Origin: Bacteroidales bacterium
GTDB taxonomy: Bacteria; Bacteroidota; Bacteroidia; Bacteroidales; P3
Assembly: GCA_031260565.1 (NCBI GenBank)
Contig: JAISLH010000124.1
Coordinates: 1-56,100, forward strand
DNA: 56,100 nucleotides
Direction: 5' to 3'
In this document: positions 6,258 through 38,758 of the stretch, piece after piece
Layout of the letters: each line of letters opens with the position of its first letter
Position numbering within the stretch: the first letter of the stretch is position 1
Notes under the pieces: generated by a model
What the model was told of the DNA's origin: nothing
The model's database searches: none
Seen by the model: only the letters and a program-made list of their open reading frames with translations
Position numbers and translations under genes: made by a program

Positions 6258-6899
6258 CTATTTGTTAATATCAAATTGACTGAAATCTCTTATCTTAGTA
6301 GAGAAATTGTCTATAAATTCTACACCTTTAATTGTTGCAATACCTCTCAATATTATAAGAATATGCAAATAAGCTATGACCTTCTGCGTATAAAAGTTGT
6401 TTCTCTCCAAATATTCATCTCTCATAGCACTATGTACATTAAGTTCTAACATATTCATTATAAAATCAAGATTTATATAGCTTATAATAAGTCCCTCTTC
6501 AATGGCTTTAGCAAAGAGGACTTTTGGACTATTTTTTTCTTTATCCCAGTTTCTTTTTTCAAAAATGGTATGGAATACGGCTGGATAGTACTTTTTTATG
6601 TCCGCAAGTGCCGTATAGCCAAACCTTCTTGCAAACTCACTTTTGTTATAGATGATTTTCAAGATGGCATCAAGGCTATTCTCGGCTTCATTTATTGTTT
6701 TATTGGTATCTTCTACGATTTTATCCACATAGAAAAGCAGACATTGCTCAATCAACGACTCTTTATCGGTGAAGTTTTCGTACAAAGTCCTTTTTGAAAT
6801 GCCAGTATTTTGAGCAATTTCGTCCATTGTGATAGCCCGACAACCTTTTGTAGCAAGTTGTCTGCCCATTTCCAAAATTATTTTTTCCTGTAGTGTCAT
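6258..6899 (-). CDS. TetR-family transcriptional regulator, probable repressor of the efflux operon
   Basis: 213 residues from the chosen ATG. The N-terminal helix-turn-helix is typical of TetR: ITMDEIAQNTGISKRTLYENF at about residues 18-38. The remaining 160 residues are a helical ligand-binding region with no family-specific match that I recognise. An open frame extends upstream to 6977, but it would run through a perfect -7 promoter element at 6924-6931, so the shorter start is preferred. The gene lies immediately upstream of, and in the same direction as, the RND operon. TetR regulators commonly repress such neighbours; that link is inferred. Confidence 0.9.
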   Translation of the reverse strand: MTLQEKIILEMGRQLATKGCRAITMDEIAQNTGISKRTLYENFTDKESLIEQCLLFYVDKIVEDTNKTINEAENSLDAILKIIYNKSEFARRFGYTALADIKKYYPAVFHTIFEKRNWDKEKNSPKVLFAKAIEEGLIISYINLDFIMNMLELNVHSAMRDEYLERNNFYTQKVIAYLHILIILRGIATIKGVEFIDNFSTKIRDFSQFDINK

Positions 6900-6923
6900 T
6901 TCTTTATTCTCTTTTTGAGGCGG

Positions 6924-6931
6924 CAAAAGTA
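6924..6931 (-). promoter_or_regulatory. -7 promoter element of tetR
   Basis: TACTTTTG on the minus strand, an exact TAnnTTTG match, with a CTTG/TTG element about 21 bp upstream. It lies 25 bp before the tetR ATG, which argues for that start. It is followed by GCCGCCTC, resembling the GC-rich stretch after many promoters in this window. Confidence 0.75.
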
Positions 6932-7175
6932 CAAAAAACTTTTGAAACAAAACAAGTTTTCCGAGTTTTTTGTTCATTTATTTTTCACATTCTTTGCAAT
7001 AATGCACTATTTCAGTATTTTACAGAAGCGAGAAACTATAAAATATTTTTCCTATACTGATAAAAAACACCCATTCTTCATACAAAAACGACACAAATTT
7101 TCCTTAAATCCGCCAAAATCAACAAAGCCTTTTCTTCAACAATCATTCATTTTTCCCAATCTTCACTTCATTTTA

Positions 7176-7421
7176 GCCAAACGCCACTTTAACTTAACCA
7201 AACGGCATTTCATTTTGCTGAAGTGGCGTTTAAATTTCGTTAGACGTACATCAAATATAAATAAGATGTACATCAAAAGAAAATAAGATGTACATCAAAA
7301 GAAAATAAGATGTACATCAAAATTAAATAAGACGTACATCAAATATATTTAAAGTGGCGTTTGGTGAAAATGGAACAGCGTTTAGTTAAGTTAAAACGCT
7401 GTTTGGTGAAGTTAAGGCAAA
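7176..7421. repeat. Composite repeat (class II): GGCGTTT-type ends around five 22-bp-phased GTAC palindromes
   Basis: The left part has AAACGCC, AAACGGC and GGCGTTT cores about 21-24 bp apart. The centre holds five copies of the palindrome GAYGTACATC, with GTAC at 7246, 7268, 7290, 7312 and 7334, exactly 22 bp apart. The spacers are A-rich (the CAAAAGAAAATAA type). The right part returns to GGCGTTTGG and AACGCTGTTTGG cores. The rest of 6980-7486 contains no gene that I can support. Confidence 0.9.
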
Positions 7422-7486
7422 GCAATGGATTTCTCTTATCAGAGAAGCATTTAGCGTAGTGAAGAAGTAGCCAAACAAAAGGCTAA

Positions 7487-10400
7487 TTAGAAATTCTTAA
7501 CCTTAAAGTTGCAGGTTGCATTGCCCGTTTTAGCCGTCAGTAAGAATAATCCTGTGGCTGGAATGATGATTTTGTTTGAATTAAAGACTTGATTTACGAT
7601 TTTACTGTCAAGGTTGGTGAGAGTGAGGCTTTGGATTGCAGCATTGCTATGAACAGTTATTTCGTTGCCTTTTTGCTCTATCTGAATGCTTTGAGCAATG
7701 CCTTCAGGTGTTGGCAACGATGAGAAACCTTTTGTAAGTTTGAGTTGAAATTCTCTTGTCGTTGGGGCTGCCCAAGTGAAGCTATAAGCGGTGTCAGTAA
7801 GGAAATCAGTCAGCCTTTCGCCGTTTTCCCTGTCGTAAAGGACGATTGAGCCAAATCCATAGCCGTTTTGGTAGTCCAAAGTCAAGGTATAATTTCCTGC
7901 ACGCTTGACAAGGCAGTCCAAATCTATCGTTAGCGTATCGGCAATGGCAATGGCGTTAAATGAAAACAGGTTATCGTCATATTTTGTGAATATTTCAGGA
8001 GACAAAGCCAAGCCGTGAAGTTTGCGATTGTCGGTTTGAAGGTCGTAAGTCATCGTTTTATTGTCGCAAAAAGCAATAGTGGTCTGGTCAAATCCCTCTT
8101 GGCAGCTGATTTTCATCGTTAGCATATCTGCAAAGGCTGCGGTGTCTGTGGTTTGTGTGCTTTTGCTCGCCGTAAGGTTGTTTTCCGAGCTTGCAACCTG
8201 CACGAAAAAGGCTGCAAAAGGGGGAATGGAGTCAGCAAGAGTAAGTGGGAAAAAGTTAGAATTGTGTTTGTTAAGCACGGAAGGAAGAGACACATTTAGC
8301 ATCGAAAGATTGGCAACAGGCAAAGCAAAAGGGTAAGGATTGGAACAAAGATGCCAGCCGCTCAAAGCAGGCTCTGCCGAAAGGGAAGCGTTATTGAGCA
8401 ATGCGTAATGAGGATTGTCGTTTATCAAACCGCTGAAAGTTAGCGTTGTATCTTGATTATATGTTACCAAATAGCCTCTTCCGTCAGCGAAAAAGTCATT
8501 AAGGTCAGTCGGTTGGTCGTTGTAGCTAATCCATTTGCCATATTCATTAGCCGAAGTGTCGCTTTCCTGCCATAAAAACAAATCGCTGTTCTGCGAAAGC
8601 AAAAAACACTGACTTATAGCCTCCTGTGAAGCAAATGAAGCAACATTTAGCGGCAAGCCTGTCATCTTCCAGCCGTCAAAGTCATTGCTCTGTCCCTCCA
8701 AAGCAACCTCAACAAAGACCGAATCCCCGACTTGCAAGACTCCTTCATTAACTAAGTTTGCCTGTGTCTCATTATGAACGTCCTTTATGAGCAAATTGCG
8801 GCATCTTGCCTTGTATCCGTCAGGTATAACAAGCGTCTGTCCTGCCAAAATCACCGCATTATCCTTCTCTGTCGGCTCTCCCTTTGTCCATTGTCCGTCA
8901 TTCCAAGTGCCGTTTGCCATTCTGATAGTATTAACAGGCGTTTTGAACCGCAGAATGTTTGAAGCAACGCTGTCTTCTCCCGTTCCACTTGTCAGAAACG
9001 CTTCATAAACAGAGCCTTCTTCAAGATTTATTATCTCAAAATAGTTGTCCGTCAGGTTAAGGTTTGCTACAAGGGCGATGTTGTCAAAAGTGCCGATAGC
9101 GTTGTCAAAAATATGTGTGCCAAAGCCCGACAAGGTGAGGCTGTCTATGGAACTTACGCTACCAATTTGCGACCACTGCTCAGGCAAAGCAACAAAGGTT
9201 GAGTCGGGATTTTGTCTTATGCCACTATTGACAAATGACTTGCGGATGAGGGTTGTTTTTGCCGTTTGAATAGAGCCTCCTGTTGAAGCGGGACTTTGCC
9301 AGCCTGTCGTACTGCTTACACCCAATGTGTCAAAACGTCCGAAAATATCTATCGTATCTCCGTTATGAAGCAAGGCTATGGCGTCATTGCCGTCTGTAAC
9401 CAAGCCTGCTGCACTTGTAAGAGATGTATTTTTGTAGAAAATGCCGTTATTGTTGGTTGAAAAGCCTCTTAACAGCTCCAAAAGCACAATGCAGGAGTTG
9501 GATTTTATGCTATCGTCTTGCGGAAAGTAGAATATGGTATCTCGTGTATGCACTCCGGTACTGTTATACAACGCAAAAGCCACCGCATATCCGTCAAGAC
9601 TAAGGTCTTCCCCTGTTCCGTTATAGATTTCTAATGCTTTGTTGTCGCCGTTGGCAGAGGTGATTTGAGAAAACAGGAGGTCGGAGGCAAAAGATGTTGT
9701 ACTGTCTGATTTTTTCTTTACAACAAGTCGGCGTTGAGAAACAAAGTCGGTGGTGGAATAGTGTATCGTTGCGGTCGTTGGGGTGATGCCTGCAATGCTG
9801 TCGGCTTTTATTTTGCTCAAAGTTGTAAAGGATAAGGTATCGTTTGCTCCTTCATAATAACAATAGTATTTCGTTTGTGGCGAAAGGTTGGTCAGTGAGT
9901 ATAAATTGGTCATTGTAAAAGGTGAATTGGCTATTGCCGTGTTGGTATTGGCAGGTGGATATGATATAAGAAGATTGTCAATGTTTATTCCCTCAACAGA
10001 GACGAACTTTAGTCTTGCTGCCGATGAGCCGTTGGTAAATTGCACTATCGTATCTGCTGCTCTGTTTTTGGGTAACCTAAGGCTGTCTATCCGCACGTAA
10101 GAGTTGTCGTCAGCAGAGTAATAAATGGCTATGTAATGGATAGAGTTCTCTTTATTTTTGTAGTGAAATTTGACCTCGTAGCTTCCGTTGGATTTGCTCA
10201 AATCAAGAATTGGCGTAATAAATTCACCTCTCACATTGCTATTTGACGTAAAGCTGCAAGTGTCACCAAAGGAGTTATAGATGTTTTTTGCTTTGCAGCC
10301 GCTTTTTGACGTGTATGACGCAGGGAGATTAAGGGCTATGTTGGCAGCACAGAAAGGGGTTGAAATTAGAGTGCGTGGAAATTTGCTGAAATCTTCAAAA

Positions 10401-10579
10401 TAAATGGTGTCATTGTCAATTATTTTGGTGAAAACGTGTAAAGCAACGGCGTTATCATTATTGGTGATTGTGATATTGGCGGAATTGTGGGTAACATCAC
10501 TGATAGACATCTGGCAAACAGCGTTTCTGCCGAGTAATATGGCAATAAGGAAGGCGGCATTTTTGATTTTATTTTTCAT
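7487..10579 (-). CDS. Large secreted protein with a lamin-tail domain and probable T9SS C-terminal sorting domain
   Basis: About 1030 residues from the preferred ATG, which gives a clean signal peptide (MKNKIKNAAFLIAILLGRNA, then VCQ). A second ATG seven codons upstream (10600) is possible. An N-terminal fibronectin-like strand region is followed by a lamin-tail domain near residues 300-420: LLFSQITSANGDNKALEIYN, then a GYAVAF strand. A beta-rich region follows, starting GTWNDGQWTKGEP. The last 75 residues resemble a T9SS type A sorting domain, with a penultimate TGLFLLTAKTG strand and a final Lys-rich strand. It is probably exported through the outer membrane and surface-attached or released. 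No catalytic domain recognised; function unknown. Confidence 0.85.
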   Translation of the reverse strand: MKNKIKNAAFLIAILLGRNAVCQMSISDVTHNSANITITNNDNAVALHVFTKIIDNDTIYFEDFSKFPRTLISTPFCAANIALNLPASYTSKSGCKAKNIYNSFGDTCSFTSNSNVRGEFITPILDLSKSNGSYEVKFHYKNKENSIHYIAIYYSADDNSYVRIDSLRLPKNRAADTIVQFTNGSSAARLKFVSVEGINIDNLLISYPPANTNTAIANSPFTMTNLYSLTNLSPQTKYYCYYEGANDTLSFTTLSKIKADSIAGITPTTATIHYSTTDFVSQRRLVVKKKSDSTTSFASDLLFSQITSANGDNKALEIYNGTGEDLSLDGYAVAFALYNSTGVHTRDTIFYFPQDDSIKSNSCIVLLELLRGFSTNNNGIFYKNTSLTSAAGLVTDGNDAIALLHNGDTIDIFGRFDTLGVSSTTGWQSPASTGGSIQTAKTTLIRKSFVNSGIRQNPDSTFVALPEQWSQIGSVSSIDSLTLSGFGTHIFDNAIGTFDNIALVANLNLTDNYFEIINLEEGSVYEAFLTSGTGEDSVASNILRFKTPVNTIRMANGTWNDGQWTKGEPTEKDNAVILAGQTLVIPDGYKARCRNLLIKDVHNETQANLVNEGVLQVGDSVFVEVALEGQSNDFDGWKMTGLPLNVASFASQEAISQCFLLSQNSDLFLWQESDTSANEYGKWISYNDQPTDLNDFFADGRGYLVTYNQDTTLTFSGLINDNPHYALLNNASLSAEPALSGWHLCSNPYPFALPVANLSMLNVSLPSVLNKHNSNFFPLTLADSIPPFAAFFVQVASSENNLTASKSTQTTDTAAFADMLTMKISCQEGFDQTTIAFCDNKTMTYDLQTDNRKLHGLALSPEIFTKYDDNLFSFNAIAIADTLTIDLDCLVKRAGNYTLTLDYQNGYGFGSIVLYDRENGERLTDFLTDTAYSFTWAAPTTREFQLKLTKGFSSLPTPEGIAQSIQIEQKGNEITVHSNAAIQSLTLTNLDSKIVNQVFNSNKIIIPATGLFLLTAKTGNATCNFKVKNF

Positions 10580-10622
10580 TTTGCAATCATTTACTATCAT
10601 AATTTATTCTTTAATTAGTGTG

Positions 10623-20386: not shown

Positions 20387-23257
20387 CTATTTCTTTATTG
20401 TGAAACGCTTGCTGACAGGTATATCATTTATCATTACCTTTATAAAATATACTCCCGCTGAAAGATTTGAGACATCTATCTGCATAGGCAGGCTTTCCCA
20501 AGTTCGCAAAACCACACCTTGCGAATTTATAAGCTGACCTTGTTTGAGTTCAGGCAAGTCTGTCTTTATGTTTATGACGCCCTGAGTCGGGTTTGGATAG
20601 ACTTCAAAGCTCCTTTGTTCATAGGCTGCCGCTGAAAGAGCATTTGTAGTCAAATAAGACCAACTACTCCATTCGCTTGGTGCTCTGTCGGCAGAGCAAA
20701 TTGTCCTTATGCGAACTTTATAAGTTTCATTAACAAAGACATCTCTTATTATATGCTCACTGCTCAACCATTGGGTATCGTAAGTTGGGTCCATAGCATA
20801 CTCAGACCAATATTCCAATTCCCAACGCAATATATCACCAACACTATCCCAAGAACAGATAATATTATGCTCACTTCCGTCAGAATAAAACTCACAATGG
20901 AAGTTGGCAGGCGGCATACAAATATCGTCTATCGCCGTAAAACTCAATTCAGTGTAATTATCAGCCGAGTCTCCTGCTGAACAGATGGAACGAACTTTCA
21001 GTAAATACTCATTATTCTCCGTTAAGCCGTTGTAAGACCAAGGATGAACGTCTGTTATCTGCCTTATGCTGTCTCCATTAGTAAGATTTTTCAACACCAC
21101 TTCCCATTCTATATTGTTGGCAAAGACGTCCCAATCAGCCACTACATTATGCCTGTTTAATGAAACGATATTCAGCTGCTGCGGACTGACACAAACATCT
21201 TCTATTGTGAAGTTAAGGACTTCAAAACCATAGTTTAAGTCAGAAGAATATGACGGGTTGATAAACGCAAACCTGACAACAGGCTCGTTTTCGTAAGTAA
21301 TGAGACTATAGGTCTTGGTTATCAAGTCGGCAGAGGCAGGTAGATTTTCAAGTAACGAATAACCATTACCTTCGGTGTAGATTAGAACTTTGCAAGGTGC
21401 AGTACTCTTATATTGAAAACTCATTTTAGGAGACGCCAACGGCAAAAAATCATAATAAGGTGAGAAAAGCGTATCGGCATTGCTTCGCCAGCATTGCTCT
21501 ACATCGCAATATCCATCAACCGAACAGCGAGTTGTGTCTATTAAATCTACAACAGGGAAGTTGTCAATGATGGTACAATAAGTCTGAAATATCAACTCAT
21601 TGCTATAACCGCTTGTATCGTTATTTGGCGTTAGGGCTCTTATTCTTACGATGTATGAAGTGTTAGGGACAAGGTTATCAAGCGTCTTTTCGGCATTAAA
21701 TAACTCCTCCGTAATATACGACCCTGCTATTGCCTTATATTCAAATATCCAGCGGTCAGCACCATTACCTTCCACCCATTGAACGGTAGCAGCAGTGTCA
21801 ATAAGATTTGTAAGCCTTAAACCTGTCGGTGGATAAATGATAATGTCAGTCGTGAAGGTGTCTATGACAGACCAGAAACTTTGTTCGGTTTGACAGTCGG
21901 CTTGAATACGATATAAATAAGTTGTGTTGTCATCTAAATTTCCCAAAATATAGTTTGGCGTTATCCCATTTATCGTTTGCCACTGGATGTCATTGATTTG
22001 TTTGTATTGAAGGTTGAAAAGAGTCTGGTCTTGGTTTGATTGCCAATTTAGAGTTGCTGAATCGTTGGTGATGTTGCTGTGTTGCAAATCGTGCGGAGCA
22101 GGGCAATAACGACCTGTAATATAAATATCGTCAAGTGCAACAGCCATTGAACTGGCTAATGTGCTTGTCCATGCAAATACTACCCTCTTTGTGTATCCGA
22201 AAAGGTCTGCTGGCATCTCTAAATGCTCACTCTGCCACTCGGTATGGTTACCTGTGTATTGAGCCTGTCCTATAACATAATCGTTAGCGGGCGGTTGGTT
22301 AATACTTAACTGAGAATTGTCGGTAAGCATATAAATCTTCAACTTATCGTTAGCGTTGTTGGTGTTGCTCTTCCACTTGAAATCTATGTAATAACTTGAT
22401 GCCGTTTCGGGCACATAAAAATCCATAAAAGCATAACTGATAGTTGTGTCAGCAATGTAAGCAGTGCTTAGCCCCTCATCAGAAGAGACATAAAGCGATT
22501 GCGTTCCCATATTTGTAGCATTTTCTGCTGTGCCTATAACCCAAGGGTTTGATGTGCCACTTATAAAACCTATTTTGGCATTTTCCTCTTCCGTCTCAAA
22601 GGTTGTTTGTATTGGTAAGTCCCAAAGATAATCCGTTTCTACATATTTTATGTTTATAAATTTCCAATCACTTACCGAGCCGTTGCATATTCCTCTTACT
22701 GCTATCTGATAGGTTTGGGCAGAAGTCAGACCGGAGAAGCTATGATTTAAGTTTGGTGTTATAAATCTCACCCCGTCAAAGGCTGGATTACTACCCACTT
22801 GCCCGCAAACTACCTCCCAAGATGTCTGTCCCAAAGCAGGATCCCATTGAACAGACAACCCACTTGAACTCATATTGTCAAGCAATAACTGCTCAACGGG
22901 CTCACAATCAGACTCCGAACCAAGAGGAACAAACGTTGCTATCTGACTCCAATCGGTTGTGTCGCCGTCATCATCAATCATTCTCACCTTCCAAATATAT
23001 CTCAATCCGCTAACAAGGCTCTGCAATTCAACAGCAGTGTCCGCCAATGTTATTTCGGTTGATTCCTCCGCCTGTAAAACTTTATAATTTACTATCCAAC
23101 CGACAGCGTTTTGGCTACCATTCCACGACAATTTTGCTTCGGTTTGGTACAATTCGCTTACCGACAAATTAGTCGGCGGATTGTATTGTGATGTGTTAGC
23201 AAAAACATTACAAATCATTGCTACAAAGCAAAATATACTTAAAATAATTCGTTTCAT
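20387..23257 (-). CDS. Large secreted fibronectin type III-repeat protein with T9SS type A sorting domain
   Basis: 956 residues. A signal peptide (MKRIILSIFCFVAMICNVFA) is followed by several fibronectin type III domains. Their hallmarks recur: PPTNLSVSELYQTEAKLSW near the N-terminus, and later TYLYRIQADC and TSYIVRIRALT. A jelly-roll-like region (about 210-390) interrupts the first and later repeats. The C-terminus is a textbook T9SS type A domain: FEVYPNPTQGVINI, then LSAGVYFIKV and a basic end. It is probably transported by the type IX system and anchored on or released from the surface. No catalytic motif recognised; adhesion or polymer binding is a guess. Confidence 0.9.
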   Translation of the reverse strand: MKRIILSIFCFVAMICNVFANTSQYNPPTNLSVSELYQTEAKLSWNGSQNAVGWIVNYKVLQAEESTEITLADTAVELQSLVSGLRYIWKVRMIDDDGDTTDWSQIATFVPLGSESDCEPVEQLLLDNMSSSGLSVQWDPALGQTSWEVVCGQVGSNPAFDGVRFITPNLNHSFSGLTSAQTYQIAVRGICNGSVSDWKFINIKYVETDYLWDLPIQTTFETEEENAKIGFISGTSNPWVIGTAENATNMGTQSLYVSSDEGLSTAYIADTTISYAFMDFYVPETASSYYIDFKWKSNTNNANDKLKIYMLTDNSQLSINQPPANDYVIGQAQYTGNHTEWQSEHLEMPADLFGYTKRVVFAWTSTLASSMAVALDDIYITGRYCPAPHDLQHSNITNDSATLNWQSNQDQTLFNLQYKQINDIQWQTINGITPNYILGNLDDNTTYLYRIQADCQTEQSFWSVIDTFTTDIIIYPPTGLRLTNLIDTAATVQWVEGNGADRWIFEYKAIAGSYITEELFNAEKTLDNLVPNTSYIVRIRALTPNNDTSGYSNELIFQTYCTIIDNFPVVDLIDTTRCSVDGYCDVEQCWRSNADTLFSPYYDFLPLASPKMSFQYKSTAPCKVLIYTEGNGYSLLENLPASADLITKTYSLITYENEPVVRFAFINPSYSSDLNYGFEVLNFTIEDVCVSPQQLNIVSLNRHNVVADWDVFANNIEWEVVLKNLTNGDSIRQITDVHPWSYNGLTENNEYLLKVRSICSAGDSADNYTELSFTAIDDICMPPANFHCEFYSDGSEHNIICSWDSVGDILRWELEYWSEYAMDPTYDTQWLSSEHIIRDVFVNETYKVRIRTICSADRAPSEWSSWSYLTTNALSAAAYEQRSFEVYPNPTQGVINIKTDLPELKQGQLINSQGVVLRTWESLPMQIDVSNLSAGVYFIKVMINDIPVSKRFTIKK

Positions 23258-23305: not shown

Positions 23306-23550
23306 AACAAAAACCGCAAAATGAGCAACAAAGCCGTCTTTTATTTCATAAAAAGCCCAACAATATTCAATCCATAATGCTTTTACCTTCATTTAAAACA
23401 CTTAAAAATGCCTCTCGGTAACATAAAATGGCAAAAAAAGTTAATTTTCTTTCAATTCAAAATGCTAAACGCCTGTAAGAACGGGATATAAACCTGAATA
23501 ACTTTCTCATAATTTTCATTCGCTTTATCCTTTAGACTATCTATTTCAAC

Positions 23551-23800
23551 CAAACGCCACTTTAACTTACCCAAACGCCATTTCATTTTGCTGAAGCGGC
23601 GTTTCATTTTTGTTTGATGTACATCTTATTTTTGTTTGATGTACATCTTATTTTATTTTGATGTACGTCTTATTTTAATTTGATGTACGTCTTATTCTAA
23701 TTTGATGTACATCTTATTTATTTTAGATGTACATCAAATAAATTTAAAACGGCGTTTGGTGAAAATAAAACGCCACTTTAATAAATTAAAATGGCGTTTC
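23551..23800. repeat. Composite repeat (class II) with six 22-bp-phased GTAC palindromes
   Basis: The left end has CAAACGCCACTT and CAAACGCCATTT, followed by a GCGGCGTTTC core. GATGTACATC or GATGTACGTC follows with GTAC at 23619, 23641, 23663, 23685, 23707 and 23729, all exactly 22 bp apart. The right end is AAATTTAAAACGGCGTTTGG and two more cores. Spacers are the reverse complement of those at 7246-7337, so the array lies in the opposite orientation. The last core is 27 bp from the ZIP gene stop. Confidence 0.92.
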
Positions 23801-23826
23801 TTAACTTTGTAAAGCTATTCCGTCTC

Positions 23827-25809: not shown

Positions 25810-25885
25810 TACCCCGTAGGGGATTTGAACCCCTGATTTCAAGAATGAAAATCTTGCGTCCTAGGCCAGACTAGACGAACGGGGC
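25810..25885 (-). tRNA. tRNA-Glu (anticodon TTC)
   Basis: 76 nt on the minus strand. The acceptor arm begins GCCCCGT and pairs with ACGGGGT (a G-U closing pair). The anticodon arm is CAAGA-TTTTCAT-TCTTG, giving anticodon TTC. The T-arm contains GGTTCAAATCC. CCA is not encoded. It is followed by rpsT in the same direction. Confidence 0.95.
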
Positions 25886-26909: not shown

Positions 26910-27215
26910 TAATATTTTTGTGAAATAGAATATAAAATCAAAGAAATTTCTTTTTAGTTGCTCCATTCGCCGTATCTGAAATGTCCTTTTTTGCTTTAAT
27001 TTTCAGACATATAGATATATTTCATTGCTTTGCTGTTTTGACAGCAATTAAGACCGCAACGACACTATTGATGTCTAAAACGCCCTAACAAATCAGGCTT
27101 TTACCACAATTCAATGATGATAGAAAGGCACGTATTAGTCCAAAATTCACATAAAACACTCATTAAATATACCCATTCTTTAATTTGCTTCATCAAAATT
27201 AAGTCTTGTTTTCCC

Positions 27216-27486
27216 AAAACGGCGTAACAATTTGCTATTACAGCGTTTTAACTTCCGCAAACGCTATTTTATTTTGCTGAAGTGGCGTTTCATTTTAGTT
27301 TGACGTACATCTAATTTTATTTTGATGTACATCTTATTTTTGTTTGATGTACGTCTTATTTTAATTTGATGTACATCTTTTTTATTTTTGATGTACGTCT
27401 AAATAAAATAAGATGTACATCAAATAAATTTATAACGGCGTTTGGTGAAAATAAAACAGCGTTTGCGGAAGTTAAAGCGGCGTTTT
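27216..27486. repeat. Composite repeat (class II) with six 22-bp-phased GTAC palindromes, between divergent promoters
   Basis: Flanking AAAACGGCG, GCAAACGCTA and GGCGTTTC cores lead into GTAC palindromes at 27305, 27327, 27349, 27371, 27393 and 27415, exactly 22 bp apart. The right end is AAATTTATAACGGCGTTTGG and further cores to 27486. Unlike most copies, it sits between two divergently transcribed genes (ferredoxin and rpsP). The remainder of 26910-27639 shows no gene. Confidence 0.92.
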
Positions 27487-27639
27487 GATAAAATTAAGCG
27501 AGATAAAGGCATATCTTTTGTACTAAAATGACCATAGTTTTTGACGGAAAAAGTTATTAAAATGCAGTATCATTAGATTCAATTTGGAATATGGTTATGT
27601 TTTTTTCGCACGAAACTTTTGTAATTCACAAAAAAGTTG

Positions 27640-27675: not shown

Positions 27676-28260
27676 ATGGCAGTAAAAATTAGACTACAAC
27701 GACATGGTAAGAAAGGACAGCCTTTTTATCACATCGTTATTGCGGATGCTCGTGCAGCACGTGATGGAAAATTTATTGAAAAAATCGGAACGTATAACCC
27801 TTTAACCTCACCGGCAACTATCAATTTAGATGTTGAGTCAGCATGCAAATGGTTGAAAAATGGGGCTCAGCCTACTGATACGGTACGTTCGCTACTTTCT
27901 TACAAGGGAGTAATGCTTAAAAGACACCTTCAAATTGGAGTTGAAAAGGGTGCAATAACTCAGGAAACGGCAGATGCCAAGTTTAACGCTTGGTTGCAGG
28001 AAAAGGAAGGCAAAATTGCGGCTCAGGCAGATAAGAGTCGTAGTGCTAAGAATGATGCAAACAAAGCCGCTATGGAGAAGGAAGAGGAGATAAAGAAGGC
28101 TCGTCTTGCCGCTATTGAGAAGAAAAGAGCAGAAGCAGAAAAGGCTAACGCTCCTCAAGAAGAGGTAGCAAGTGAAGAAGAACAACCTGTTGAGGTTTCA
28201 GAAACTCCGTCCGAAGAAGCTCCTCAAGTAGAGGAAGCAGTAGCAGAGACAAACGAATAA
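27676..28260 (+). CDS. rpsP: 30S ribosomal protein S16 with long acidic/Ala-rich C-terminal extension
   Basis: 194 residues. The first 80 or so are a complete S16 ([42 protein letters not shown] at the start, split here as one region). The rest is a low-complexity extension rich in Ala, Glu and Lys, becoming acidic at the end ([19 protein letters not shown]). Extended S16 proteins occur in Bacteroidota; typical bacterial S16 is about 80-90 residues. The extension is probably disordered or helical and may face solvent. It is monocistronic between its own promoter and terminator. No function for the tail is visible. Confidence 0.97.
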
Positions 28261-33249: not shown

Positions 33250-33320
33250 TTATCCCGTCAAGATTCGAACTTGAAATGACTGGACCAAAACCAGTTGTGT
33301 TGCCATTACACCACGGGACA
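33250..33320 (-). tRNA. tRNA-Gln (anticodon TTG)
   Basis: 71 nt on the minus strand. The acceptor arm TGTCCCG pairs with CGGGATA (one G-U). The anticodon arm is ACTGG-TTTTGGT-CCAGT, giving anticodon TTG. The T-arm contains AGTTCGAATCT. CCA is not encoded. Confidence 0.93.
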
Positions 33321-33467: not shown

Positions 33468-35144
33468 ATGGCTACCAATTTTGACAGCAATAAACCTATC
33501 TTAGAAGTTGCGGATTTACGAATTTCTTTTCTCAATGACGGCGAATGGCATCAGGTTATCAAAGGAATAAATTTCTCCATTGGCAAAGGGGGAATATTAG
33601 GCTTAGTTGGCGAATCAGGCTCAGGTAAATCGGTCTCGTCTCTCGCTATTATGGGTCTCTTGCCTTCAAAAATCAGCCGCATAGATAGCGGTAATATTTG
33701 GTTCAATGCTGATAATGAGAAAGATTTAGCAAAGATTATTTCCGCCAAAGAGTATTCCAAAATTCGCGGACGTCAGATTGCAATGATTTTTCAAGAACCT
33801 ATGACAGCCTTAAACCCTGTCCTGCGTTGTGGAAATCAAGTTGCAGAAGTCCTTCACTCACATACGCAAATGACAAGCAAAGAAGCAAAGGCTAAGGTAT
33901 TAAATCTATTTGAAGAGGTCTTGCTTCCCAATCCGCAAAGGGTTTTTCGTGCTTATCCTCATCAGCTTTCAGGCGGTCAGAAACAACGAGTTATGATAGC
34001 AATGGCTCTTGCCTGCGAACCCGACTTGCTTATAGCCGATGAACCTACTACTGCACTTGATGTAACGGTTGAAAAGGCTATTTTAGAACTGCTAAAAGAT
34101 TTGCAGGAACGCCGAAATATTGCAGTCCTTTTCATCACTCACGACCTCGCAGTTATCAGAAAAATTGCTGATAATGTTGCCGTAATTTACAAAGGTGAGA
34201 TTGTAGAGCAAGGCAATGTAGAATCTATTTTCGCCAACCCCCAACACATTTATACAAAAGCTCTTTTGGCTTCACGTCCTCCTAAAAATGCTCGCCCTAA
34301 AAGACTGCTTTCCGTCAGCGATTTCATAAATAATACGACCGAGACCTCATTTGTAACCGATAAGGAAAGGCAACAGGAGCACAAAATGTTGTATGACTCT
34401 GACCCTCTGCTGAAAGTGAGTAACTTAACTGTCAAATATAAGCATACTACGGCGGTTAATAACGTCAGTTTGGAAGTTTATCGCGGCGAAACGCTGGGTC
34501 TGGTTGGCGAATCGGGCTGTGGCAAGACAACAATAGGCAGAAGTATTTTGCAGTTGATTGATAACCAAAGCGGAGATGTGATTTTTGACAACCAAAACCT
34601 TGCATTAGTTTCCGCAAAACAAATGCAGCGGCTGCGACAACGCATTCAGATAATTTTTCAAGACCCATATTCTTCTCTCAATCCTCGTATGAAGATAGGT
34701 AAAGCAATAGAGGAAGTACTTGATGTTCATAATATTGGCACTAAATCACAGAGAAAGCAGCGTGTATTGCAGATGTTGGAAAAGGTAGGTTTGGAGCGTG
34801 AGCATTATGAGCGGTATCCACATCAGTTTTCGGGCGGTCAGCGGCAGCGAATAGGCATAGCAAGAGCCTTGATACTCAATCCGGAATTGGTAATTTGCGA
34901 TGAATCTGTTTCGGCTCTTGATGTATCGGTTCAGGCTCAGGTTTTGAATTTATTAAACGATCTAAAGCGTGAATTTGCCTTTACTTTCATTTTTATATCT
35001 CACGACTTAGCTGTCGTCAAATATATGTCAGACAGGATATTAGTAATGAAAAGTGGTGTTATTGTTGAGCAAAACGAAGCCGACACCCTATATTTGCATC
35101 CTCAAAACGCCTATACCAAAACTCTGATTGCCGCAATACCTTAA
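33468..35144 (+). CDS. Double ATP-binding protein of a peptide-type ABC transporter (DppD-DppF/OppD-OppF fusion)
   Basis: 558 residues with two complete ATPase domains. The first has Walker A GESGSGKS, signature LSGGQKQR and Walker [13 protein letters not shown]. The second has Walker A GESGCGKT, signature FSGGQRQR and Walker [13 protein letters not shown]. Both resemble the D and F subunits of oligopeptide/dipeptide importers, fused head to tail as in E. coli GsiA. It should power import of peptides or related solutes. No permease or binding-protein gene is adjacent, so its partners must be encoded elsewhere. A class II repeat lies downstream. Confidence 0.92.
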
Positions 35145-35165
35145 CAAAATAGTCTTTCATTTCAC

Positions 35166-35372
35166 TCAAACGCCACTTAAACTTAACGAAGTGGCGTTTT
35201 ATTTTCACCAAACGCCGTTTTAAATTTATTTGATGTACATCTAAAATAAATAAGATGTACATCAAACGAAAATAAGATGTACATCAAATAAAAATAAGAT
35301 GTACATCAAACAAAAATGAAACGCTGCTTCAGCAAAATGAAATGGCGTTTGGTGAAGTTAAGGTGGCGTTTG
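35166..35372. repeat. Composite repeat (class II) with four 22-bp-phased GTAC palindromes
   Basis: CAAACGCCACTT and GAAGTGGCGTTT form a short hairpin at the left. CAAACGCCG follows, then GATGTACATC with GTAC at 35235, 35257, 35279 and 35301, exactly 22 bp apart. GAAACGCTGC and two GGCGTTTG cores close the element. It begins about 22 bp after the ABC ATPase stop. The rest of 35145-35479 shows no gene. Confidence 0.92.
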
Positions 35373-35479
35373 ATAAAAATGAAGTGCGAGTTCATTGCGT
35401 TAAAACTTGATAGGTAATGATTTTGGTCTTATTATGAGATATTTTTTGTAATAAAGAACGATATGTGAAAAAAAAGTTG

Positions 35480-35759: not shown

Positions 35760-36845
35760 ATGGCAAAAGAGCTAAAATTAATGAAAGGTAACGAAGCAAT
35801 TGCTGAGGCGGCAATTCGCTCTGGTTGCGATGGGTACTTCGGTTATCCTATCACTCCCCAATCCGAAGTTATGGAATACCTTATGTTAGAAAAGCCTTGG
35901 GAAAAGACTGGAATGGTCGTTCTGCAAGCAGAAAGTGAAACGTCTTCTATAAATATGGTATATGGTGGTGCAGGTGCAGGTAAGAAAGTTATGACTTCAT
36001 CTTCCTCACCCGGAATAAGCCTTATGCAGGAAGGTATGACTTATCTTGCAGGTGCGGAACTTCCTTGTTTGGTAGTCAATGTGGTTCGTGGAGGTCCCGG
36101 TTTGGGAACAATACAACCTTCGCAGGCGGACTATTTTCAGGCAACAAAAGGAGGAGGACACGGAGACTATCAACTGTATGTCTTAGCCCCTGCTTCTGTT
36201 CAGGAGATGTATGACTTTGTGTTTGATGCTTGGGAGATAGCTTTCAAGTATCGTAACCCTGTGATGATACTTTCTGACGGAGCAATAGGACAGGTTATGG
36301 AGAAGTTGTATGTGGGTGATTATGTACCTCGTTGGACTGACGAGCAGATACACAAAATAGCTCCTTGGGCTACTTTTGGCAAACCTGCTTCCCGTGACCA
36401 CAACATCATAACATCTTTGGAGCTTGATAGTGCCAAACAGGAACTTCACAACCAGAAGTTGCAGGCTAAGTACAGAGAGATGGAACGTAATGAAGTACGC
36501 TTTGAGGAAATAAACTGCGAGGATGCAGAATATCTCTTTGTAGCTTACGGTTCATCGGCTCGTATAGCACAAAAGGCTATTCAGTTAGGAAGAGAAAAAG
36601 GAATAAAGGTAGGGCTTTTACGTCCTATAACTCTGTTCCCTTTCCCAACAAAGAAGTTGGCAGAGTTGTCCAAGAAAGTAAAAGGTATGCTTTCTGTTGA
36701 AATGAGTGCAGGGCAAATGGTAATGGACGTAAAACTTGCTACTGAAGGCAGATGTAAGGTAGAACATTACGGACGTTTTGGAGGAATGATTCCTACTCCG
36801 CACGAAGTATTAGAAGCATTAGAAGAAAAAATCATTAAAGGTTAA
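35760..36845 (+). CDS. 2-oxoacid:ferredoxin oxidoreductase, alpha subunit (VorB/KorA type)
   Basis: 361 residues. The N-terminal pyrimidine-binding domain has the conserved start MKGNEAIAEAAIRSGCDGYFGYPITPQSE, cited here in part as residues 8-36; GYPITPQSE is the family motif. VMTSSSSPGISLMQEG lies in the catalytic cleft. The C-terminal domain (about 240-360) resembles transketolase domain II and contains a conserved GSSARIAQKAI stretch. It pairs with the beta subunit to hold thiamine pyrophosphate at the interface. It lies 5 bp before the beta gene. The substrate is not resolved between 2-oxoglutarate and 2-oxoisovalerate. Confidence 0.93.
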   Translation: MAKELKLMKGNEAIAEAAIRSGCDGYFGYPITPQSEVMEYLMLEKPWEKTGMVVLQAESETSSINMVYGGAGAGKKVMTSSSSPGISLMQEGMTYLAGAELPCLVVNVVRGGPGLGTIQPSQADYFQATKGGGHGDYQLYVLAPASVQEMYDFVFDAWEIAFKYRNPVMILSDGAIGQVMEKLYVGDYVPRWTDEQIHKIAPWATFGKPASRDHNIITSLELDSAKQELHNQKLQAKYREMERNEVRFEEINCEDAEYLFVAYGSSARIAQKAIQLGREKGIKVGLLRPITLFPFPTKKLAELSKKVKGMLSVEMSAGQMVMDVKLATEGRCKVEHYGRFGGMIPTPHEVLEALEEKIIKG

Positions 36846-38226: not shown

Positions 38227-38263
38227 AAAAGCTCGCTGATTGATTTCAACGGGCTTTTATTTT
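38227..38263 (+). terminator. Terminator of the 2-oxoacid:ferredoxin oxidoreductase operon
   Basis: AAAGCTCG and CGGGCTTT pair (one G-U) around a 14-nt loop and are followed by TATTTT. It lies between the gamma-subunit stop and the tandem repeat. Confidence 0.65.
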
Positions 38264-38275
38264 GTCTCATTAGGT

Positions 38276-38614
38276 TATAATCATTTTATAACCTGCGATA
38301 AAATGATTATAACCTGCGATAAAATGATTATAACCTGCGATAAATATTTTATAACCTGCGATAAAATGATTATAACCTGCGATAAACTTTTTATAACCTG
38401 CGATAAACTTTTTATAACCTGCTATAATCATTTTATAACCTGCTATAATCATTTTATAACCTGCTATAAATTTTTTTTAGCAGGAAATAAATTCATTTTA
38501 GCAGGAAATAAATTCATTTTAGCAGGAAATAAATTCGTTTTAGCAGGAAATAAATTCGTTTTAGCAGGAAATAAATTCGTTTTAGCAGGAAATAAATTCG
38601 TTTTAGCAGATAAT
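38276..38614. repeat. Sixteen-unit tandem array with 21-bp period and a polarity switch
   Basis: The first nine units carry TATAACCTGC, with the core CCTGC at 38292 and every 21 bp to 38460. The next seven carry TTTAGCAGG, with GCAGG at 38480 and every 21 bp to 38606 (the last reads GCAGA). GCAGG is the reverse complement of CCTGC, so the two halves face each other, joined by a 20-bp junction. Spacers are AT-rich and vary (AAAATGATT, AAACTTTTT, AAATTCGTT). There is no gene in 38264-38758 that I can support. Confidence 0.97.
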
Positions 38615-38758
38615 AAATTAAATTTTACAAGTTATGGGAGGACAATTTCCGTTCCTTAAATATAATCCTGCGGCTACTCCAGTCTTTCGTTTTGCCGTTC
38701 TCAAACCTTTGCCCTGCTGTAAAGATTGGTAAAATGCGGTGAAGTTATTTTTTATTAC

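Follow-up and report, generated by a model that had tools for sequence, protein, structure and literature searches.

Introduction

Several described systems come close to the repeats analyzed here. The BrickBuilt MITE/minisatellite of Porphyromonas gingivalis carries 23-nt direct repeats inside an inverted-repeat element, its unit is species-specific, and its fixed terminal inverted repeats are related to ISPg1/ISPg9 (PMC4596501). The nucleoid-occlusion sites of Noc in B. subtilis and SlmA in E. coli, like the matS sites of MatP, are short scattered palindromes served by one DNA-binding protein (PMC4726725). For Cur/BT4338 of Bacteroides, the consensus is wwwTATGTTnTAnAACATAwww (PMC6989115). 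We have analyzed a stretch of 56,100 nucleotides from a Bacteroidales bacterium (contig JAISLH010000124.1; hereafter the window) in which short palindromes recur in four intergenic rows, and we found no description of these arrays in the open-access literature.

Results

The original prediction, made from the sequence of the window, had described a decamer palindrome with GTAC cores at 7246, 7268, 7290, 7312 and 7334 and had pointed to similar arrays at 23619, 27305 and 35235. The positions of the five cores proved exact, and the three further arrays are real, with 6, 6 and 4 units, each at exactly 22-bp pitch (Table 1). That these form a family and not an accident was strongly supported, as GAYGTACRTC occurs 21 times in the window vs. 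0.04 expected from dinucleotide shuffles, with all 21 copies lying within the four arrays.

Table 1. Arrays, enclosing elements and other features of the window (positions are those of the window)
Feature	Position	Strand	Description
Array 1	7243..7340	.	five TNNGAYGTACRTCNNA sites, 22-bp pitch
Array 1, neighbor	7487..10600	-	lamin-tail gene, 3' end toward array
Array 1, neighbor	6258..6977	-	TetR gene, 5' end toward array
Element 1	7164..7422	.	array 1 with left and right arms, inverted 21-bp AAACGSCGTTT-type repeats (tandem-repeat, fold, arm profile)
Array 2	23616..23735	.	six sites, 22-bp pitch; upstream of secreted fn3 protein gene (20387-23257, -)
Element 2	23549..23802	.	array 2 with 21-bp arms (sequence, fold)
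Array 3	27302..27421	.	six sites, 22-bp pitch; upstream of ribosomal protein S16 (27676-28260, +)
Element 3	27215..27492	.	array 3 with 21-bp arms (tandem-repeat analysis, fold)
Array 4	35232..35307	.	four sites, 22-bp pitch
Array 4, neighbor	33468..35144	+	ABC transporter gene
Array 4, neighbor	35760..36845 and beyond	+	ferredoxin / 2-oxoacid oxidoreductase operon
Element 4	35160..35390	.	array 4 with 21-bp arms (sequence, fold)
tRNA gene	25810..25885	-	Rfam
tRNA gene	33250..33320	-	Rfam
139-aa ORF	38240..38659		two 21-bp tandem-repeat blocks (9.5 + 7.3 copies), heptad-like; weak beta-roll Pfam match, PF21300

The decamer of the original prediction is present as a palindrome, but it is only the center of what is conserved. 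With 200 units of the genome aligned in register, the conserved unit was found to be a 16-bp interrupted palindrome, TNNGAYGTACRTCNNA, whose outer bases are T(-2) in 195/200 and A(13) in 193/200 units and whose GA, GTAC and TC are near-invariant; positions -1, 0, 11 and 12 hold A and T in free combination, and the rest of the spacer varies. We write the recognition motif as TNNGANGTACNTCNNA, the half-site counted from the dyad being T8 N N G5 A4 N G2 T1.

The source assembly comprises 2.05 Mb in 133 unordered contigs. The whole-genome search for pairs at 22-bp spacing that the original prediction had called for yielded 157 adjacent pairs of GAYGTACRTC, falling into ~42 intergenic arrays of 2-7 units each; since a count of GANGTACNTC pairs over all pitches of 12-42 bp gave 157 again, no other pitch is used in this genome. 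We read 41 arrays individually, accounting for 153 of the pairs, and the element at C90:11399 probably holds the remaining pairs, for a total of ~42 arrays. Spacings within the arrays read were either 22 bp (153) or 44 bp (4, with a single decayed unit between), and in the 316 kb around arrays all 198 decamer copies lay in arrays, with 0 single copies vs. 0.39 expected. Contigs C20, C46, C47, C84 and C90 of this assembly end inside or beside an array; the elements seem to break short-read assemblies, and arrays are therefore likely under-recorded. Two pairs of elements (L040/L061 and L038/L069) have closely similar flanks or arms and neighboring genes of similar size, which suggests segmental duplication that includes the element.

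Arrays also occur far beyond this genome, an extent that the original prediction had missed. Genome searches of the three other species of the genus (G001-G003) recovered no such arrays, indicating that the system is dispensable. The sister genomes G172, G173, G175 and G180 are likewise array-free. In another genus of the same family (g10), GATGTACATC pairs at 22 bp number 28, 30 and 73 in G174, G177 and G178, respectively; the outer T and A are kept in 160/160 and 160/160 units, and the spacers are quite different from those of the window's genome, e.g. TTAGCAGCGTGA. A further family is represented by G376, where GASGTACSTC forms 100 pairs at 22 bp; outer T and A occur in 21/21 units each, and the free position 3 is G/C. 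Scanning GTDB contigs for four consecutive decamers added Phocaeicola coprophilus An818 (outer T 12/12, outer A 8/12), uncultured Bacteroides MAGs, the Bacteroidales MAG Kf353_bin79 and a MAG labelled Anaerolineales UBA5796; in the Bacteroides MAGs and the UBA5796 MAG, the arrays retain decamer and pitch without the outer T/A. As judged by these alignments, TNNGANGTACNTCNNA at 22 bp is common to at least three Bacteroidales lineages with unrelated spacers. Among 392 Bacteroidales genomes, 16 match GTAC x4 at 22 bp, some of them as simple tandem repeats.

The original prediction had expected spacing to hold in relatives, and for the most part it did; counts at 12-42 bp pitch equalled those at 22 bp in G000, G177, G190, G192-G195 and G376. 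The exception was G179, which has 11 GANGTACNTC pairs but a single GATGTACATC pair at 22 bp, and whose one array read steps by 23 bp; being mostly off 22 bp, it shows that the exact phase is not universal, and its array L124 (G179:C77:8700-10794), with steps mostly of 23 bp, offers a natural test of the phase idea.

Other arrays came to light in these searches. The UBA5796 MAG labelled Anaerolineales carries GATGTACATC arrays at 22 bp (L148, L160), reflecting either another phylum or contamination. Two intergenic arrays in G003, L104 (C59:31500-32400) and L105 (C32:25100-26000), are built of other palindromes, AAACCTAGGTTT and ACTTTCGGCGAAAGT, at ~22 bp, one of them nested within inverted flanks like the layers of an onion; 22-bp arrays of different GTAC palindromes occur at G357:C1:29205 (ACTGTACAGT, with ATAT half-way) and G224:C58:19258 (TTTAGTACTAAA). 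A phage origin was set aside because neither a run of three decamers nor a pair of 16-mers at 22 bp was matched in the IMG/VR viral contigs, a collection that may omit records near the window's own genome.

Discussion

A homodimeric DNA-binding protein that sits on neighboring sites would be expected to leave just such a trace: a discontinuous palindrome whose intervening bases are free, which recurs about every two helical turns and is maintained across lineages. From this we infer that each array is probably a row of 2-7 sites for one homodimeric, sequence-specific DNA-binding protein recognizing TNNGANGTACNTCNNA. The same protein would recognize the motif at every unit, and the 22-bp pitch, at about two helical turns, would bring neighboring dimers side by side on the same DNA face, where they could bind cooperatively. 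We surmise all three features, namely the protein as selective agent, its dimer state and its cooperative binding, from the pattern of sequence. The protein-binding sites of the original prediction thus gain indirect support, in that the 16-bp discontinuous palindrome is conserved across lineages and among orthologues.

The constraint among orthologues can be seen in g10, where 50 unit comparisons between species revealed no change at T(-2) and none at A(13) (0/100), vs. 101/500 at the other spacer positions (Fisher p = 2e-9 vs. outer T/A) and 19.5% in the flanks; loci in some cases contribute to more than one pair of orthologues, so that the comparisons are not fully independent. The decamer changed in 1/500, but as the decamer was the search key by which related loci were found, its conservation is partly ascertained, leaving only T(-2) and A(13) free of this bias.

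The arrays might instead be plain operator sites at which a transcription factor, perhaps of the CRP/FNR superfamily, governs a defined regulon, an alternative that we consider unlikely but the strongest of those weighed here. Sites of CRP/FNR proteins have the GA-N6-TC motif geometry. The arrays share this geometry, a 22-bp footprint, and T8 and G5 as in the CRP-like Cur/BT4338 of Bacteroides, a resemblance that may serve as a lead rather than a test. Arrays in this genome also avoid convergent gaps (1 convergent, 17 divergent and 15 tandem), the convergent vs. divergent difference reaching p = 1e-4 against all array-free gaps. However, this orientation bias lost significance against long array-free gaps of 200 bp or more (p = 0.25), so we do not retain a promoter-side bias, and it fails in other lineages, where 11 convergent and 4 divergent gaps were found in a count made up largely of the second genus. 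The conserved central GTAC and the rows of 4-7 sites would likewise be unusual for CRP-type operators, and the flanking genes, a mixture of housekeeping functions and secreted proteins (GAPDH, S16, CysRS, BamD-like, HU-HIG, OmpA, Mfd, PBP, secreted proteins and others), share no function. With unrelated flanking genes and gene orientation that varies by lineage, a single regulon is unlikely; a terminator role was also rejected, given that arrays are not concentrated in convergent gaps here and contexts vary by lineage. HU-HIG nucleoid-protein genes start beside an array both in this genome (L049:3496-3921) and in a Bacteroides MAG (L143:2283-2759), an adjacency that we take as a lead on the cognate protein, weaker than the CRP-like likeness.

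Alternatively, the arrays could be a neutral or selfish minisatellite residing in a MITE-like, BrickBuilt-like inverted repeat, in which pitch and palindrome persist by copying and not by use; this, too, we judge to be rather unlikely. Spacers next to each other resemble one another more than randomly paired ones do (0.82 vs. 0.58), and an array shared by two Bacteroides MAG species differs between them by one duplicated unit, from which it follows that arrays grow by tandem duplication and that spacers then drift while the 16-mer does not. In keeping with whole-unit copying, the sole indel inside orthologous arrays was one whole 22-bp unit and 5/8 indels in the flanking arms were exactly 21 bp. 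The arms are inverted repeats, and between congeners the element at the gap gene is present or absent: G001 has arm-type arrays that lack the center, for example in the orthologous GAPDH promoter region, and G002 and G003 have nothing there. Speaking against copying as the whole account, spacers change by ~20% between species with T(-2) and A(13) unchanged, and the same discontinuous motif recurs in unrelated families with unrelated spacers. In addition, arm similarity fades gradually outward and comes to no sharp end, and fixed terminal inverted repeats were not seen; BrickBuilt ends of the GAGACCTTTGCA type, at ≤2 mismatches, matched the window 7 times vs. 5.2 expected, with none inside an element, and BrickBuilt terminal repeats were discarded on that basis. 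The tandem expansion of the original prediction is also supported, both by the spacers and by the comparison of array lengths, in which orthologues differ by a whole 22-bp unit; it had been posed as an alternative to selection on helical phase, but the two can hold together. As to the phase itself, selection is plausible but unproven, because whole-unit copying inherits the pitch and because G179 is mostly off 22 bp.

A third possibility, which we find improbable, is that the element acts as RNA or single-stranded DNA, in the form of a ~250-nt hairpin or cruciform with a part in transcript stability, termination, RNase III processing, or fork or recombination structure. Each array of this genome lies inside an inverted element of ~230-280 bp, overlooked in the original prediction, whose arms are inverted 21-bp repeats of the AAACGSCGTTT type. 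Single strands of these elements fold as ~250-nt hairpins at -66 to -126 kcal/mol (raw energies, not relative to shuffles), and beyond the first 12 bp, arms of the same element match each other better than they match those of other elements (z 2.2 to 5.5). Within the arrays, however, it is sequence rather than pairing that is conserved: one-sided T/C at position 3 or A/G at position 8 occurs in 44/200 units, and G376 often has non-complementary pairs (GACGTACCTC), which together argue that self-complementarity or base pairing is not what is maintained. Arrays in G376 and P. coprophilus have no such arms, implying that the arms are an addition and not the essence; further against a structured nucleic acid, arrays are found in divergent, tandem and convergent gaps, and apart from the two tRNAs no Rfam family was matched in the window. 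When the 21-bp arms of the elements (all of them, e.g. window 35308-35400, +) are translated outward, they resemble lysine/arginine-rich K-x-K-R-R-F/L heptads with a modest depletion of stops in this genome, 39 vs. 51.8 (sd 3.7) in column shuffles; we do not claim protein-coding arms, as the second genus has many arms with stops and another frame is equally depleted.

An origin as REP/BIME-type palindromes mobilized by a RAYT (Y1) transposase would fit the dispersed, intergenic and composite nature of the arrays but is most improbable, as PF01797 gave 0 matches in the array carriers G000, G174 and G177 searched and is present in some relatives irrespective of arrays.

Returning to the homodimeric protein on rows of TNNGANGTACNTCNNA, we consider its most likely role, by a weaker inference than that for binding, to lie in organizing the chromosome as a whole or marking its domains through dispersed clusters of sites, in preference to control of one regulon, because the neighboring genes have no function in common and are oriented differently to the arrays from lineage to lineage. 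More broadly, and tentatively, we postulate a chromosome-organizing system of Bacteroidales in which a dimeric protein would assemble side by side on 22-bp-phased TNNGANGTACNTCNNA rows at tens of intergenic loci, with free positions and spacers drifting by lineage and the whole set repeatedly gained or lost between species. Little seems to be known about site-specific chromosome organizers in Bacteroidales. A dispersed, phase-locked family of multi-site operators conserved across families provides a concrete probe for finding such a protein, and the natural series it comprises (22 vs. 23 bp pitch, 2-7 sites, T/C or G/C at position 3) lends itself to testing helical phase and cooperativity.

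In comparison with known systems, the arrays resemble REP/BIME sequences in being dispersed intergenic palindromes in composite arrays, but with no RAYT in this genome and with other rules of pitch and orientation. The likeness to BrickBuilt is closer and includes the Bacteroidales host, intergenic location, short direct repeats (23 nt there, 21/22 bp here), an inverted-repeat element and at most tens of copies per genome; the internal tandem repeat of ~23 nt has its counterpart, in terms of length, in the 22-bp arrays and 21-bp arms, and the arrays differ in their conserved 16-bp palindrome that recurs across families. Read against the Cur consensus, TNNGANGTACNTCNNA has the GA-N6-TC palindrome of ~22 bp that is a feature of CRP/FNR sites, and it shares with Cur/BT4338 a palindrome of 16-22 bp, G5 and T8 in the half-site and TA at the dyad; in contrast to CRP/FNR operators, the arrays have an invariant GTAC center and multi-site rows, with no single sites found and no shared regulon. 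With Noc, SlmA and MatP, the arrays have in common tens of conserved palindromes over the chromosome, here ~42 arrays with 157 pairs in 2.05 Mb. To our knowledge, Noc, SlmA and matS sites do not occur as rows of 4-7 at a fixed 22-bp pitch, and it is these fixed-pitch rows that set the present arrays apart.
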